Virus record (IMG/VR): IMGVR_UViG_3300029911_000010
Location: 40,428 to 104,427 of that record
Reading direction: 5' to 3' (one strand)
Source: a virus
DNA length: 64,000 bases
The stretch's first letter is position 1. Each line of letters begins with the position of its first letter. A model generated the notes under the pieces. That model did no database searches. It had not been told where the DNA came from and was given only the letters and a program-made list of their open reading frames with translations. Shown here piece by piece: positions 3,502 to 64,000 of this stretch. The position numbers and the translations under genes were made by a program.

Positions 3502-4533
3502 TTACGTCGCAACCGCCTGAGCCGTAACATGCGGGCATTGGCCGTAGATATGCTTGGCTTTGTTACAGTTAGAACACAACAGTTGCCAATTGTCCTTCGG
3601 AAATCCGGCAGCTTTAAGCCGGCGGTAAAGCCTTAATCCGCCGCTGCCGTGTGCTCGACGATCATCAGCCCCCTTACCGTCGATGTGATCAATTTCTAGA
3701 AACTGCGGCAATGTTTCCGGACAACCAGGACACGAACATTTACTACCGTAGGCTTCGATGATTTCGGCGCGGAGTCGATCATGCTTGCGATTAGATTTTT
3801 TCCGACTCATTATCAAATGCCGCTCACACATTGTCTTGTCTTCGACTGCAAGTTGATCACAGTGCTGGGCAACACAAATCCCTTTGTCTTTCCGATTAGC
3901 GTAATCGTTCTTGTCTTCTTCTCGACAGTCGTCGCAATACCTATTGACTCCGTTGGTCGGTTTATCGCATTGCGTGCATTTGCCAGCCTGCTGTCGCTCC
4001 GCTGTTTTCTGCCGCCTTACTTCTCGGCACTGATCACATCGGACAGTCCCCGGTTCAACATAAGCCGGGCAGCTTTGACACAGACCGGCACGAAGACGAG
4101 CGTTGTAACGCGGAATATCTTCGATTCGTTCCAGCTGCAAAGCGTAACAGTACCGACAACGATCCTGCTCGGCATCAATGTAAAACGCGCCGCATTCGAT
4201 GCAAATCCCCTGAGCAAGCCGCTCAGCGGATTCGGTCTCTTTGATCGCTTGAGATTGCACGGCAAGTTCGGCAGCAGTCATAATCTGCCGGTTTCGTTGC
4301 TTTATAAGACACAGATCACAGTAAACTGAATCAACACCGGCCGGTTGTGTACAGCCAGTCGTCACGCATAAACCGGTCTGCTTGCGTCGAAGATATTTCT
4401 CGTGATCTTTTTGCTTAGCGACATCTGTGTGATACTGACATCTAGCTTTTCCCGGTAAAGCCGGTTGACTGCACGAACAACATAAACCCCGTTCACGCCG
4501 ACTTCGTTGTACATCTGCCGAATGAATCGCCAT
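3502..4533 (-). CDS. HNH endonuclease with an array of zinc-binding repeats
   Basis: 343 aa. The first about 240 residues contain a series of short CxxC-type zinc modules (for example CCSC, CSQP..., CIEC, CQSC, CDQC, CTQC, CDDC), each separated by basic linkers. The C-terminal part (about 255-335) is an HNH nuclease: EIDHIDGKG supplies the His/Asp core and LCSNCNKAK the zinc-binding and His/Asn end. It lies just past the terminator of the major capsid gene with SD AAGGAG. Homing-type HNH nucleases commonly invade such inter-gene positions. The long zinc array is unusual for them and could give extended DNA recognition. Confidence 0.85.
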   Translation of the reverse strand: MAIHSADVQRSRRERGLCCSCSQPALPGKARCQYHTDVAKQKDHEKYLRRKQTGLCVTTGCTQPAGVDSVYCDLCLIKQRNRQIMTAAELAVQSQAIKETESAERLAQGICIECGAFYIDAEQDRCRYCYALQLERIEDIPRYNARLRAGLCQSCPAYVEPGTVRCDQCREVRRQKTAERQQAGKCTQCDKPTNGVNRYCDDCREEDKNDYANRKDKGICVAQHCDQLAVEDKTMCERHLIMSRKKSNRKHDRLRAEIIEAYGSKCSCPGCPETLPQFLEIDHIDGKGADDRRAHGSGGLRLYRRLKAAGFPKDNWQLLCSNCNKAKHIYGQCPHVTAQAVAT

Positions 4534-4613: not shown

Positions 4614-5552
4614 TCAGACAAAGTCCGCACGGGCCAGCCCTGACGTGAAGCCAATCGTGCCGCCCATGGTCTCATAGGCGAAAAATTCCAACATAAAGGC
4701 TTCGCGCCTAATGTACATAGTCGTGTCTTCAAGCACATAGGACTTGCCGATGAACTTGGGATCACTGAACATGTACATCGTGTTGGTCGGGACCAGACCC
4801 TTCTTGATCGTGATCACCCAGGTCTTGCCCATGAACTCCTGGAGCGTCCAGCCGTTCTTCATGATGTCCTGAGACAGGTCGCCACCCATCTCGTTGCGGC
4901 CGAACTTGCACACATCCTTGATCGTGATGTGGTTGATGAGGATCGTGTGGACCTCCAGCGAGCTGGGGGTGTTGGGCATGATCTTCATCGCATCTTCCAG
5001 CGTATCGCGGGTGATGCCACCGGCAATCACTTCGTACTGGACGACGCCGCTGGTCGGGACAACCAGGCCGGGGCCGACGATCGCGGTGTTGATGGCGCGG
5101 ATGAATTTAGAATCTTCCTCTGCCAACATGTCCTTGATCGCGTTATCACTGAGCACCTGGCGGATGTCCATGATCCAGGTCCGCAGCTCGTCCACGTCTT
5201 TGGTGAAACGGGGCGTGACGATACGGTCGAACATGACGCGGTAGCGGGGACCGCGAATGTACAGGTTCTGCGGCAAGGTCGCGAACGCGATGCTGATGGC
5301 AGCAGGCGAATTCGGTTCCTTGTCGACCACCTTGACCGGCTTGTCGGTGTCGACCTGGCGGTCCAGCTCATCGTTGCCGATGGGCGTGGCCGGCAGGATG
5401 CGGCGGTAAAAGCCGTCTTCACGCATCTTCGTACGCGTGAAGTCGTTGATGGAATCTTCGGCCTGTTTGATCAGGCCGTTATCACGAGAGCCAAGCTGCT
5501 GAAAAAGCGTTTGATTCAGCAGCTTAGTTTCTTCGGGGGAGAGCTGAACCAT
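4614..5552 (-). CDS. major capsid protein, HK97-fold type
   Basis: 312 aa. The helical N-arm holds the INDFTRTKMRED segment (about 32-43), followed by the peripheral domain. The end, FFAYETMGG..GFTSGLARADF, is typical of large-phage HK97-fold capsid proteins. It is preceded by head genes and followed by a strong terminator, and has an unusually good SD (GGAGGA). Its 5' leader carries two GGA hairpins shared with the upstream gene. Parts of it recur in two other genes (58127-59428 and 60529-60819). Assignment rests on motif and context; no structure search was possible. Confidence 0.8.
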   Translation of the reverse strand: MVQLSPEETKLLNQTLFQQLGSRDNGLIKQAEDSINDFTRTKMREDGFYRRILPATPIGNDELDRQVDTDKPVKVVDKEPNSPAAISIAFATLPQNLYIRGPRYRVMFDRIVTPRFTKDVDELRTWIMDIRQVLSDNAIKDMLAEEDSKFIRAINTAIVGPGLVVPTSGVVQYEVIAGGITRDTLEDAMKIMPNTPSSLEVHTILINHITIKDVCKFGRNEMGGDLSQDIMKNGWTLQEFMGKTWVITIKKGLVPTNTMYMFSDPKFIGKSYVLEDTTMYIRREAFMLEFFAYETMGGTIGFTSGLARADFV

Positions 5553-58126: not shown

Positions 58127-59428
58127 TTAAGACTGCAAAAGAGGTTTAGAACTTACGGGTATCAGCTTGGTGACCTTGCGAACCGGCCGGCGGCGCAGCT
58201 CCTCGCTCAACGTGGGCTTTAGCTCGGCGGCAAGCTTGGTCACGCCGCCGGGCAGCAGATCGTTTAACACCGCTGCGACTATTTCCGGGGTAAGGTCATG
58301 GGCTTCGTCAAATAAAAGACTAACCCTATGGTTCAGCGGGTTCGACTGCTGATAATGACGCAAAACATCGGTCAGAGTAGCGCCGGCATCACCCAGGCTA
58401 TCGTTGGATTCTACCGGCGGCGCGGGATTGGCGTCTGCATCGGCCACGGCGTCAGGCAGGGCAGCCGGCGGCATGATCGGCGGCACCCAGCTGTCTTCAC
58501 GCATCCGGGCACGGGTGAAGTCATTGACTATCTGGTCTGCGGCGGCAGCCATGGAATCCTGCTCGGCCACCATCTCACGTATTTCTTGCGCTGGGTCGAT
58601 GCCCATACTGTGCAGGATAGCTTGCTCGTTGTACTGCCGAAGGCGATCCACGTACTCCCGCGACGCTGCTCCGCCGTCGCGGTTAGGCATCCCGAGATAT
58701 TCACGTACGAACGCATCGCCGTTTCGATTGATGTACGGCGTGCCGATATGGCTACCCTGACCGGTCGTTGAGACACCAACTGAACCCTCGGGACCTTGCG
58801 GGCCTGGATCTCCCGGCGGCGGCTCAATGTACGCAGTCGGCGATATTGACGAAAACGGGATAATCGTCTGTTCGGGTCTTGGCCGCATGCGAGTGGTCAT
58901 CGTGCGGATGGCTGCCCCGCTGACGCCGTCGATGGCGTACTGGCGGATCTCGTTGAGAATGCTGCGGTAGTAGCCGGCGTAGTAGCTCACGTCGTCGGTG
59001 TCGACGCCGCTGTCCTGAACGCCGCAGCCTCGGGGAAGGTAAACCTGACGTCCACTGTCAGGCCGATCGTCGTTCTCCAGTGACATTGTCGCCGCCCGCC
59101 AGGGCAGCCAGTAATGCCGGTAGATCGGGCCGTTAGCCGACAGGTTGCAGTTGAACGCAGGACGCCACAGACGCGGCAGATCACGCGGCCCCCACAGCAG
59201 CTCGTGAAAGTTGCCGTTGAACCACAGATCAGGCACGCCCATCAGGTTGGTCATGGCCTGGTACAAGTTGGAAGCCGAGCCCGGCGCAACCGTTCGCAGA
59301 CCCCACCACGGATTGAGATACAGATCATGGCCGACCTGGTTGCTGTACTCCGTAAGCGAGTCGTGTGTTTCAGACCGATACAGCAACGACTGAGCTGGTG
59401 ATTGTCGAGCTGGGGGTGCTTCGCTCAT
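58127..59428 (-). CDS. virion-type protein carrying a capsid N-arm segment (433 aa)
   Basis: 433 aa. Tyr/Pro/Arg-rich beta-type N-terminus (about 1-200), a short collagen-like stretch (GDPGPQGPEG), then at about 300-320 VNDFTRARMRED, closely matching the major capsid N-arm INDFTRTKMRED. A helical basic C-terminus follows. GGAGG lies before ATG. Located next to the tRNA-like element. Suggests a minor capsid or capsid-interacting protein. Confidence 0.65.
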   Translation of the reverse strand: MSEAPPARQSPAQSLLYRSETHDSLTEYSNQVGHDLYLNPWWGLRTVAPGSASNLYQAMTNLMGVPDLWFNGNFHELLWGPRDLPRLWRPAFNCNLSANGPIYRHYWLPWRAATMSLENDDRPDSGRQVYLPRGCGVQDSGVDTDDVSYYAGYYRSILNEIRQYAIDGVSGAAIRTMTTRMRPRPEQTIIPFSSISPTAYIEPPPGDPGPQGPEGSVGVSTTGQGSHIGTPYINRNGDAFVREYLGMPNRDGGAASREYVDRLRQYNEQAILHSMGIDPAQEIREMVAEQDSMAAAADQIVNDFTRARMREDSWVPPIMPPAALPDAVADADANPAPPVESNDSLGDAGATLTDVLRHYQQSNPLNHRVSLLFDEAHDLTPEIVAAVLNDLLPGGVTKLAAELKPTLSEELRRRPVRKVTKLIPVSSKPLLQS

Positions 59429-59446
59429 ACATCCTCCATGATAACT

Positions 59447-59546
59447 ACATCCGGCAGGAGTCGAACCTGCGAACCCCTCGGTCTCGCCCTGCAGGGGGCA
59501 CCTCGGGGTTTACCTGCGTACCATTAAGCCACTCTGGCACGGACGT
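59447..59546 (-). tRNA. tRNA-like element with unusual middle arm
   Basis: Minus strand. A 7-bp acceptor-like stem (ACGTCCG with CGGATGT, one G-T pair), a D-arm-like stretch GAGTGGCTTAATGGTA, and a clear T-arm GCAGG-TTCGACT-CCTGC. The middle part does not form a standard 5-bp, 7-nt anticodon arm; instead AACCCC/GGGGTT, GGT/ACC and GCCC/GGGC make a long hairpin with loop CCTGCA. No CCA is encoded. It fills the gap between two genes exactly. It may be a degenerate tRNA, a tRNA-mimic or an attachment remnant. Confidence 0.45.
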
Positions 59547-59549
59547 ACG

Positions 59550-59840
59550 TCATTCGCTTTCGGCCACCCGGATATTCTTGATCTCGTGCAGTGGCTGTTG
59601 GATGGTTGTCCCGTGATAGTCAAAGACCGCCACCGGGATCACACTGACCACCTCGGACTTGCGGCCCATGTCGCTGACCGTCTCGGTTACTATCTTGCTG
59701 GAGATCTTCACAGTTTGTTCGTGCCCGTCCGGAAACTTAACCAGCAGCTTGCCACTCTTAGGTATTTTGAACTCTACGCTGCCGACAAACACCTTGCGGC
59801 TGCCCCAGTCGTTCTCGTATTTAATCTTGGCCCATTTCAT
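59550..59840 (-). CDS. hypothetical protein (96 aa)
   Basis: 96-aa beta-type protein. GGGAGAAG before ATG. Placed just upstream of the tRNA-like element. No family recognised. Confidence 0.6.
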   Translation of the reverse strand: MKWAKIKYENDWGSRKVFVGSVEFKIPKSGKLLVKFPDGHEQTVKISSKIVTETVSDMGRKSEVVSVIPVAVFDYHGTTIQQPLHEIKNIRVAESE

Positions 59841-59849
59841 TGCTTCTCC

Positions 59850-60359
59850 CTAGCTTTGATATCCGGCGGGAATCACACACTTGAGAGCATACCGTTCGGT
59901 AGTTCCAGGGATCAGCTCGATACCAATAACCGTTACCGTCTTACCGGCGATCGTCCGCTGGTGGCCGATCGCCCCTTCCCAGATCCTTATATTGCTATTG
60001 CCGTCAACTTGCCAGCTCACGTATCTGGCCTCCGGCACCGGCCCAGGATCGGCGGTGGGAATCAGCTTGAAAATCTCCTCTTGATCCCGTTTGACCAGCA
60101 ACTGCACCCGCGCGGGGTCTCGCCACGGGATAGCCTGAAAGGTCTTGTAAAAATCATCCAGGTTGGCGCAGTTCTTGGCCGCCACGTACACGGAGCACTC
60201 CATGTACTTGGTGCCGCCGGCCAGGTAATCGACGCGGACAAGGTCCACGCCGCTTTCCCTGGACAGCCGCTTGACCAACTCGTGAGGCTCGCCCTGCTTC
60301 TCGTTGCCGTCATCCTCGCTGCAGCTGAGGATTAGAACAAAGTTGGTGACCACGCTCAT
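59850..60359 (-). CDS. hypothetical protein (169 aa)
   Basis: 169-aa beta-rich soluble protein, no signal peptide. GGGAGAAG precedes the start, which overlaps the stop of the zinc-ribbon gene. No family recognised. Confidence 0.6.
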   Translation of the reverse strand: MSVVTNFVLILSCSEDDGNEKQGEPHELVKRLSRESGVDLVRVDYLAGGTKYMECSVYVAAKNCANLDDFYKTFQAIPWRDPARVQLLVKRDQEEIFKLIPTADPGPVPEARYVSWQVDGNSNIRIWEGAIGHQRTIAGKTVTVIGIELIPGTTERYALKCVIPAGYQS

Positions 60360-60532
60360 CGCTTCTCCCTTCGCGGGATTCGCAGCACCCGCAGAAACCA
60401 GTGAAACATCATCTCAAATACACCCCGGACCCGACCCATGTCCTGAGTCGGCCGGCCGCACCGGGGACAGAAGTTGGCTCTCTGCCGCACCTCGCAGCAG
60501 ACCGGGCACCAGCGGACGTAGATCTTGTTCAT
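60356..60532 (-). CDS. small zinc-ribbon protein (58 aa)
   Basis: Read directly: AAGGGG before ATG, 58 codons, TGA overlapping the next start. CPVCC and CPRCG (about 9-25) form a zinc ribbon, followed by a basic, hydrophobic C-terminal helix. Possibly nucleic-acid binding. Confidence 0.65.
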   Translation of the reverse strand: MNKIYVRWCPVCCEVRQRANFCPRCGRPTQDMGRVRGVFEMMFHWFLRVLRIPRREKR

Positions 60533-60819
60533 GTGCTACCCCTTATGCCGAGGTATTGCCAGTAAGTCCTTTCGTCTTCGTCCATCATGTCCTTGATGGC
60601 GTTGTCGCTGAGCACTGCCCGGATATCCATTTTCCAGGTCCTCAACTCGTCGACGTCCTTGGTGAACCTGGGCGTCATGAGCTTGTGCCAAACCCGGCGA
60701 GGCTGGCACCACTTGCTCAGCCAGGCAAGACAGCGCTCCAAAAGCCCCGGCGTGGCAGCTAGCGGAGCCAAGGGCACAGCAACGAAGAAACGACTGAGGA
60801 ATTGACGACGGCTAAGCAT
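60529..60819 (-). CDS. Tat-like leader fused to a major-capsid fragment (96 aa)
   Basis: 96 aa. N-terminus MLSRRQFLSRFFVAVPLAPLA looks like a Tat signal. Residues about 48-85 (TPRFTKDVDELRTW, IRAVLSDNAIKDM) match the capsid protein (TPRFTKDVDELRTW, IRQVLSDNAIKDM). The DNA of this segment (60586-60678) is about 80% identical by eye to capsid DNA 5127-5219. So it is a recent copy of a capsid piece on a new leader. SD AAGG. Could be expressed as a small secreted or membrane-linked capsid mimic, or be a recombination scar. Confidence 0.65.
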   Translation of the reverse strand: MLSRRQFLSRFFVAVPLAPLAATPGLLERCLAWLSKWCQPRRVWHKLMTPRFTKDVDELRTWKMDIRAVLSDNAIKDMMDEDERTYWQYLGIRGST

Positions 60820-62120: not shown

Positions 62121-63890
62121 CTAAGGCTTGGGTATCGGACGGCTGACTGGCTGAGTGGCGGCCACCGACCGGGCTCCAGCCGTGACACCGTCATAATGCA
62201 GTAAATAACCTGTCTTGGGCAACGACAAATCTGTGAACTTGTCGTTGCGGACATTGAACAGGCTGTCCCACGACTGCGTAGTCATGAATCCGACTTTAGA
62301 CAGATAGTTGACCGCGTTGGGAGACGGTGATCCCCTGTGTGTTCCGGGCCAGATGTTATGCACAATCAGGGAAAAACCCTTCGTGTCCACGGCGTTGATC
62401 CATACCGCAGAGTCCCAGCCGTAGCCAATGCGCAAATTAGGAGCCAGATAGGCATTGCTGGACAACAGGATGCTGCCCGCCGGAGCCGATCCAAAGACAT
62501 TGATGAAATTACCGTCCGTGCCGGTGTTGATCCCGGTGTTATTGAAGATCATCAAATCTTCAATCGTACCGAACGGCCCGCTGGGCGTGACTGCGATCTG
62601 GCCGGTGCCGCTGATGTTAAACACATTGTCGCGAATCATGACGTGGTGGCCGACCTCGTCGATCACCAGCTGTGCGCCATCAACATAGTTGTTAGCGTAA
62701 ACCACCCAAGTCGCCTGCTGATCCGGAGTCTGTCCGGGGCTGGGCGAGATTGCGAACGTGCTGGAATGCAGCAGGTTGTTGGTGACATAAACGAAATGCC
62801 CGATCCGGGTGTCGACCGTGGTCTTCTGTGCCTCCGCCTCATCGTCGTCCGGATACTGCTTGGTCAGATCATTGCCCGACACCAGAACGCCCACGACATC
62901 GTCATCGTTGATCCGTACACAATGCGCCCGAGTGGTGTTGGTCATCTGGTTGCCGGTGATGGTCCAGCCGCTGCCGTCCACCCAGGTCAAGTAGCCCCTC
63001 ACGCCTTTAAGCAACGGAGCCTGGTTGTTCTCCACCACTACGCCTTGCGGCTGCAGGGTGCCGTTGATCGCGTCGCCGACATTAAGGAAGGTATTGCGCC
63101 GGACCACCAGGTTGGAGCCGCCCGCCCAGACCGCATAGCTGTTCAAGTCATCCGCCGGCCCGGCGGTCACTGCGTTGGGCGAATCAAACGCCAGGTCCTG
63201 TATCGTGATGTTCCAGCAGTCGGTGCCGACAAACAAAATGGCCTGTGAGCCATCGACGGGAGCAAACATCAAACTGGGAGCCGTGCCGACGCCGTAAGCG
63301 CCCAGCAGCTGATCGTGACCATTGAACCACAACGTCGTGGTCACCGGGTAAACCTGGTTACGGCAAAGAAAGATCTCGGTGTTGCTGCCGAACAACGAGA
63401 ACCCCTTGTCGACAGTTTTCAACGGATGATCAGGTGATATGCCTGAATTGGCGTCCGATCCGTTGATTCCGTCCACGTAGTAGGCGACACGGGTGTCCGC
63501 AGCGATCGTGGCCTGGGTGGTGGCCGTGGATATCGCCCCATTGTCATCAGTTAGAGTCATGGTGATCGTGTAAATGCCGGCCTGGTCGTAAACATGCCCG
63601 GCGTTGAAACCGATCAGTGAATTATGTTGGCCGGCCGGGTCGCCAAAGTCCCAGCGGTAATCTGCGGTCAGCGGCGAGCCGTGATTGAGCGTGGACTGGA
63701 TGGCGCTGACGTTAATCGCCTCGCCGGTTGTAACGCTAGTCTGCATGGCAGTCAGCACCGCCTTAGTCGGCTGAGCCAACATCCAGGCAGCCGGTCGGGT
63801 TGCCGGCCGGGTAGCAGTAGGTAAAGGTTTCGGAGCGGCCAAGACCATGACGGACATGAGCGATACGAGGATCGCAGATAGACAACGCAT
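62121..63890 (-). CDS. secreted PKD and beta-helix protein, fibre/spike-like (589 aa)
   Basis: 589 aa. Signal peptide (about 1-19), a Thr/Pro-rich linker, a PKD-like domain (about 48-130: YRWDFGD, GHVYDQAGIYTITMTLTD), then a right-handed parallel beta-helix region (about 135-540) rich in Asn/Val/Gly repeats typical of pectate-lyase-like folds. ATG chosen from AAGGAG 6 nt upstream; RNA AGGA-GUU-UCCU pairs over the SD. Phage beta-helices are often receptor-binding or glycan-degrading. A signal peptide on one is unusual. Catalytic residues not identified. Confidence 0.7.
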   Translation of the reverse strand: MRCLSAILVSLMSVMVLAAPKPLPTATRPATRPAAWMLAQPTKAVLTAMQTSVTTGEAINVSAIQSTLNHGSPLTADYRWDFGDPAGQHNSLIGFNAGHVYDQAGIYTITMTLTDDNGAISTATTQATIAADTRVAYYVDGINGSDANSGISPDHPLKTVDKGFSLFGSNTEIFLCRNQVYPVTTTLWFNGHDQLLGAYGVGTAPSLMFAPVDGSQAILFVGTDCWNITIQDLAFDSPNAVTAGPADDLNSYAVWAGGSNLVVRRNTFLNVGDAINGTLQPQGVVVENNQAPLLKGVRGYLTWVDGSGWTITGNQMTNTTRAHCVRINDDDVVGVLVSGNDLTKQYPDDDEAEAQKTTVDTRIGHFVYVTNNLLHSSTFAISPSPGQTPDQQATWVVYANNYVDGAQLVIDEVGHHVMIRDNVFNISGTGQIAVTPSGPFGTIEDLMIFNNTGINTGTDGNFINVFGSAPAGSILLSSNAYLAPNLRIGYGWDSAVWINAVDTKGFSLIVHNIWPGTHRGSPSPNAVNYLSKVGFMTTQSWDSLFNVRNDKFTDLSLPKTGYLLHYDGVTAGARSVAATQPVSRPIPKP

Positions 63891-64000
63891 AGGAAACTCC
63901 TTGAACGTAAACGGCCTCCGGCCCGGAATGTTGGCAGTGAGGATGCCCCAGGCAGGCAGGTAAGTCAAACAAATAGATATATCCGGCTCGTTGGCGAGCC

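Follow-up and report, generated by a model that had tools for sequence, protein, structure and literature searches.

Two genes with capsid segments far from the capsid gene

The window, by which we mean the whole stretch of 64,000 nucleotides analysed here, corresponds to positions 40428-104427 of a viral record of 104,427 bases (G000). It carries the gene of a major capsid protein (MCP) and, about 53-55 kb away, in agreement with the ~55 kb given by an earlier sequence-only reading of this DNA, two genes in which segments of that protein recur. The features on which our argument rests are the following:

3502..4533, minus strand: multi-zinc-ribbon HNH endonuclease-like gene, 343 aa, a candidate homing endonuclease; adjoins the MCP gene on its downstream side
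4614..5552, minus strand: MCP gene, the donor family, 312 aa (PHROG 2522 major head protein, E 4e-9)
5112..5216, minus strand: spine/P segment of the MCP (aa ~113-147), of which the 96-aa gene holds a copy; placed by alignment to phage G gp27
5388..5462, minus strand: MCP N-arm segment, aa ~31-55, which part of the 433-aa gene resembles
58127..59428, minus strand: 433-aa gene with an MCP N-arm-like piece; codon use is gene-like on both sides of the piece
58469..58527, minus strand: N-arm piece VNDFTRARMREDSW..IMP in the 433-aa gene; 78% DNA identity to the MCP gene over 60 nt, E 1.3e-5
58826..58861, minus strand: stretch IPFSSISPTAYI of the 433-aa gene, possibly a degenerate E-loop motif; suggestive (12.8 bits, p ~0.07 against length-matched genes)
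60529..60819, minus strand: 96-aa ORF with a twin-arginine-type leader and a copy of MCP aa 105-150
60582..60675, minus strand: DNA copy in the 96-aa ORF, 94 nt, 81.9% identical to the MCP gene (E 8e-21 by blastn when that gene is searched against its own genome)
60730..60819, minus strand: leader of the 96-aa ORF, MLSRRQFLSRFFVAVPLAPLAATPGLLERC, with a twin-arginine motif; AGAAGG lies 6 nt upstream of the ATG

The MCP is related at the profile level to gp27 of Bacillus phage G (PDB 6wkk, E 3e-8), and the domain names used here are based on the alignment to that protein, the AlphaFold model of the MCP being poor (pLDDT 55) and left unused. The MCP has 104 relatives among viral contigs; matches are also present in four unrelated MAG contigs, which do not settle the host. 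No tRNA or other Rfam family was found near the two window genes.

The match between the 96-aa ORF and the MCP is certainly real. When the MCP was compared with its own genome, its residues 105-150 were matched in this ORF (E 8e-16) with 65% amino acid identity, or ~83% across residues 113-147, and the ~80% DNA identity over 93 bp reported from the sequence alone agrees with the aligned value listed above. In a profile scan with the MCP family (described below) the ORF reached 54.2 bits, against a null maximum of 23.9. It overlaps the neighbouring genes by 8 and 4 nt in an operon-like manner, and its frame has the best codon use of the six, but the signal, leader included, is weak. The 96-aa junction was not found in any other viral contig, though near-identical records may be hidden.

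The match of the 433-aa gene is very likely real as well, with a weaker piece than that of the 96-aa ORF: the comparison of the MCP with its own genome matched residues 22-93 (E 3e-5), and the profile scan gave 33.5 bits against the same null. The claim that this gene contains the N-arm itself has to be softened to a resemblance, its VNDFTRARMRED being similar to the capsid's INDFTRTKMRED and not identical to it. Nor are the two borrowed segments successive in the capsid, as had been proposed: MCP residues 56-104 lie between them, represented here by no more than the possible E-loop-like stretch at 58826-58861, and their order is reversed. At these scores both genes are carriers, that is, non-capsid ORFs holding an MCP segment beyond chance, and neither belongs to the HK97-fold MCPs, from which they hold pieces only, without full-length N-arm, E-loop, P and A domains.

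Recurrence and specificity for the capsid gene

We searched 46 related IMG/VR records, most of them of 80-235 kb, with the MCP, and pieces were seen in further phages. All ORFs of 17 whole or nearly whole records were then put through an 18-residue profile scan, with a profile built from the MCPs of 43 relatives; the null was given by the reversed ORFs of nine genomes, whose best match is the maximum quoted above. The highest match demonstrably due to chance lies in G030, inside a gene of a conserved primase-like family; it scored 30.6 bits and was dropped. Eight of the 17 phages, including that of the window, hold one to three clear MCP pieces in unrelated ORFs: G000 (2), G002 (2), G003 (3), G019 (3), G026, G035 (3, counting a tentative RhaM-fused piece at 30.4 bits), G041 and G023. 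Scores of 30-54 bits were found in seven of nine genomes and, among eight more, in G023 at 40 bits. Matches in G007 (23-28 bits), G017 (27) and G043 (25) were left uncounted as weak, and the ORF scan gave no clear piece in G004, G005, G012, G015, G020, G030 or G043; none was found in the cultured distant relatives Arash and D69 either. The pieces span 15-75 residues, lie in unrelated proteins, and the phages that carry them are dispersed over the MCP tree. Non-conservation had been put forward as a reason to discard the observation, and orthologues of the 96-aa and 433-aa genes are indeed absent from 16 relatives, but the same kind of chimera recurs there.

This behavior is peculiar to the capsid gene. 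As a control, we took 30 conserved families (16.8k aa in total) and searched every ORF of nine genomes with their profiles: the MCP (310 aa in this control) gave 12 dispersed matches of at least 15 bits and was the only family so scattered, while nearly all others gave none, three had matches resembling those of paralogues or split genes, and one had a single match of 16.6 bits. Likewise, a comparison of each predicted gene with the genome it comes from gave, as short and distant matches of high identity, MCP pieces, ordinary paralogues or short repeats. The strongest distant DNA repeat in G000, G003, G019 and G041 is the MCP, which is involved overall in eight of ~200 distant repeats where ~2 would be expected from its length. 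On both this gene-by-gene comparison and the 30-family control we reject the idea that the pieces are debris of just any gene; the window case is one instance of a recurrent, capsid-specific process. Within the MCP, the pieces come mostly from the N-arm, E-loop, spine and C-terminal segments, the A-domain being nearly absent; simulated detection at 65% identity is only moderately lower for the A-domain (0.67 versus ~0.84). A single sensed epitope does not explain the pattern, since the pieces derive from several regions of the protein.

Probable capture of capsid DNA and the neighbouring HNH-like gene

The pieces differ in age and in donor. Those of G041 (103 nt, 96% identity) and G003 (79 nt, 94% identity) are recent copies of the phages' own MCP genes. 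The G003 copy has small indels and a stop nearby, and behind it lies a second MCP piece, taken from further upstream in the gene, in scrambled order; that of G041 is short and shows little sign of constraint. Both look neutral. Several other pieces are closer to the MCP of another lineage than to that of their own phage, as with the N-arm piece of G035, which is 91% identical over 55 nt to L024 and 81% over 67 nt to its own MCP. In G002, an MCP piece takes the place of the variable linker that joins two glycosyltransferase domains, and the linkers of four orthologues are unrelated to it. Recent copies, foreign-nearer pieces and the G002 linker together lead us to the view that MCP DNA is captured repeatedly, sometimes from co-infecting relatives, and MCP-biased capture is the likely origin of the pieces. 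Copies reverse-transcribed from the abundant MCP mRNA were considered and set aside, as there is no match to PF00078 (RVT_1) in 35 records.

A candidate cause of the bias lies next to the capsid gene. The window ORF at 3502-4533 combines an HNH motif with a place beside a conserved target gene, and would on these grounds qualify as a homing endonuclease; its similarity to Pfam HNH is weak when it is searched alone (E 0.0024) and reaches 3e-5 in the genome search. The same family adjoins the MCP gene in L015 (on both sides), L023, L024 and L025, always within 0.75 kb, and was found nowhere else across ~80 MCP loci, each up to 20 kb long. In addition, two of the three G003 pieces lie within 1 kb of an HNH-like ORF. 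An apparent HNH gene at 219 kb in G035 proved to be an antisense artefact. It is known that homing endonucleases of the free-standing kind, and nuclease genes more widely, tend to sit close to essential phage genes, capsids included, and capsid genes occur in 31% of T5orf172 neighbourhoods (PMC10448857). T4 offers a comparable arrangement, with segD just after gene 23, as the HNH-like gene lies directly beside the MCP in the window phage and four relatives; what we find here and is not a described outcome of such a neighbourhood in the literature searched is the dispersal of capsid pieces. The MCP-adjacent HNH genes thus suggest a cut-and-capture origin, through a link that is positional and a cleavage that is putative, and the genomes that bear fragments today are mostly without an MCP-adjacent HNH gene.

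We therefore propose a process in which MCP DNA, from the phage itself or from a co-infecting relative, would be captured repeatedly at ectopic sites. The bias toward the MCP is observed, and its cause would probably be double-strand breaks made by HNH enzymes at the MCP locus during co-infections. Most pieces would then decay, and in-frame ones, often at gene ends or in linkers, could stay as segments that mimic the capsid.

Apparent retention, leaders and possible uses

Some pieces do seem to have been kept. G026 and G035 have orthologous carriers in which the graft of E-loop and C-terminal segments is 27/43 identical versus 48/133 elsewhere in the proteins. Most fragments are read in the frame that is coding on one or both of their sides. 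In several carriers, including the leader-bearing proteins of G019 and G035, which are diverged homologues of each other, there are two or three separated capsid motifs, at a level well beyond background. These observations support the maintenance by selection of the segments in the G026/G035 graft and in the two leader proteins. For several pieces, including that of the 96-aa ORF, dN/dS to the nearest MCP is ~0.17-0.22, which suggests constraint, although a neutral copy taken recently from an MCP outside the sample could give the same value; the N-arm piece of the 433-aa gene, at 0.4-0.7 to near MCPs, is compatible with little constraint.

The leader of the 96-aa ORF had been flagged as an unexpected Tat signal. 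In a rule-based scan, its MLSRRQFLSRFFVAVPLAPLAA does show a twin-arginine motif and a hydrophobic core, but it is not a one-off, there being four carriers with such a leader. These leaders are rare: 17 loose matches and about seven convincing ones were found in 3,636 predicted genes, and three of the latter belong to carriers of MCP pieces (the 96-aa ORF and the proteins of G019 and G035). In these three, a twin-arginine motif and an uncharged hydrophobic stretch near the start would make the products predicted Tat substrates. The same features are also seen in a fourth carrier, in G023 (157274-157507), where MHKITRREAIRLAIAAAVTTAVGK precedes a capsid C-terminal piece.

Our preferred reading, held tentatively, is that both window genes are chimeras with captured MCP pieces, and that some such pieces are retained as capsid mimics. 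Their likeliest use would be to imitate the MCP toward a partner that recognizes it, for instance a host defence that senses capsids, or a factor of folding or assembly, as a decoy or a competitor, and the leader-bearing forms might do the same at or across the inner membrane. The main rival, itself possible if somewhat doubtful as a general account, is neutral recombination debris: unusually recombinogenic MCP ends, produced for instance by MCP-directed homing endonucleases in co-infections, would be pasted elsewhere, tolerated where they fall in linkers, at gene ends or in accessory genes, and left to decay without function. The recent G003 copies with their indels and scrambled order, the linker replacement in G002, the position of pieces at C-terminal ends and the foreign origin of some donors all fit with this, as do the HNH genes next to the MCP, the HNH-like ORF close to two of the G003 pieces and the known habit of nuclease genes to settle beside essential phage genes. 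The in-frame excess, the multi-motif carriers, the better-kept G026/G035 graft and the association with leaders, however, would all be unexpected from debris. The proposal of recombination scars made in the sequence-only reading is supported for the recent cases (G003 and G041 at 94-96% identity, and the G002 linker); for others, the evidence favours their being kept as functional peptides. Among single readings, capsid mimicry serves the older carriers best; debris follows closely where the young carriers and the 433-aa piece are concerned.

The same reading had offered two functional options, and both fare less well. Interference, in which the fragments would poison the head assembly of co-infecting related phages as dominant-negative capsid peptides, is very unlikely: it would fit with most pieces coming from elements used in assembly (N-arm, E-loop, spine, C-terminal strand) and with some of them lying nearer to the MCPs of other lineages, but the phage's own MCP has nearly the same sequence in the copied segments, which makes such a weapon awkward through self-poisoning, twin-arginine leaders would remove the protein from the cytoplasm, and the somewhat lower detection of the A-domain weakens the domain bias. 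That the carriers are minor head proteins, or are addressed to the capsid by an MCP-like segment with which they co-assemble or bind and deliver a cargo, is quite unlikely, given that they are not conserved, lie mostly outside the head module, carry differing capsid segments and in several cases bear export-type leaders. T4-type phages do address internal proteins to the head through a short N-terminal sequence, and the T4 gp61.1 protein, discussed below, joins a beginning of this head-addressing type with the N-arm of gp23. Chance similarity or assembly artefact is barely credible. The records are metagenomic and the survey did throw up the G030 match, but most pieces, at 18-40% divergence, are too different to be products of mis-assembly, and the null maximum, the recurrence in independent records and the MCP-only pattern of the 30-family control speak against chance.

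Capsid proteins are recurrent triggers of bacterial immunity, and the MCP directly triggers CapRel (PMC9712102) and Thoeris (PMC11312562), while a 29-residue peptide of gp23 enables Lit (PMC3014915). A phage protein that showed the same surface without triggering these systems would be a decoy. In all these cases, the Gol peptide of Lit included, the thing recognized is the MCP or a short piece of it, as we propose here, but these are host sensors of the MCP itself; in the literature searched, of which coverage is partial, we found nothing direct on phage-encoded decoys made of MCP fragments or on capsid fragments in phages. A bolder proposal, which we regard as unlikely, is that this phage family builds and renews a repertoire of capsid mimics from pieces of its own and its competitors' MCPs, as decoys against capsid-recognizing host factors. 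If true, phages would have a counter-immune strategy that the literature searched does not describe, with T4 gp61.1 as a possible settled example. The scatter of capsid pieces would reflect either a counter-defence strategy or a mutational hotspot created by homing endonucleases, and with either outcome the numerous orphan genes of large phages would have to be read differently. These chimeras also differ from T4 gp24 (the vertex protein) and other MCP paralogues, likewise derived from the MCP family, which have a complete HK97 fold and sit beside the MCP gene. They are closer to the birth of chimeric genes from gene fragments, where new ORFs are joined from old pieces, with the difference that here a single source family is used repeatedly.

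A parallel in T4 bears on the window genes as a lead. Compared with the T4 genome, gp23 matches, besides gp24, the product of gene 61.1 through its residues 57-95 (E 7e-4, and 1e-5 in ECML-359). This 54-aa protein (MKTFKEFIKEDMVAGDSGGNPENISIGTTSGAVVNKGP...) is identical to gp23 57-93 at 17/37 positions, a region that we take to comprise the head-protease site and the mature N-arm, and no mention of the resemblance was found in the literature searched. As in the window, a small gene located elsewhere resembles the capsid N-arm; unlike the scatter of varied pieces described here, gene 61.1 is a conserved single gene at one site, with a start that resembles the head-protease site. The parallel makes the question of capsid pieces testable in a laboratory phage. 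Genes similar to 61.1 are present in more than 1,300 phage records and form PHROG 1823, annotated as of unknown function.

Capsid motifs in proteins of related phages

G019:94896-95747 (-), twin-arginine-leader protein with three capsid motifs
G035:134228-134989 (-), twin-arginine-leader protein with three capsid motifs
G035:129575-130453 (-), protein with an L-rhamnose mutarotase domain (PF05336)

The twin-arginine-leader proteins of the related phages G019 and G035 are diverged homologues of each other, and each carries the E-loop, spine start and C-terminal strand motifs of the capsid protein; a PEPK motif is also common to both. The mutarotase-domain phage protein of G035 holds a tentative capsid piece, ELDRQVDTEK, in its N-terminal part. 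In another relative, G041, a short stretch beside the capsid piece, at 121644-121697, repeats the beginning of a gene nearby (122585-123274), a hint that the site was patched together during repair.

T4 gene 61.1 and gp23

NC_000866.4 18966-19130 (L258:667-831) (-), T4 gene 61.1, PHROG 1823

By sequence comparison, the gene 61.1 product is similar to the part of gp23, T4's own capsid protein, that comprises the N-arm and protease site (17/37 identical). Genes similar to 61.1 occur in more than 1,300 phage records.

Other features of the window

62121-63968 (-), 615-aa protein, PKD domain, weak tail-fibre similarity
3502-4533 (-), multi-zinc-ribbon HNH endonuclease-like gene

Upstream of the 433-aa gene lies a tRNA-like sequence (59452-59540, -) with a good T-arm, GCAGGTTCGACTCCTGC, called by neither ARAGORN nor Rfam. 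The 615-aa protein has an N-terminal TRPATRPA stretch, which may point to a planctomycete-like host. The HNH family directly adjoins the major capsid protein gene in five members of the phage family (the window, L015, L023, L024 and L025).
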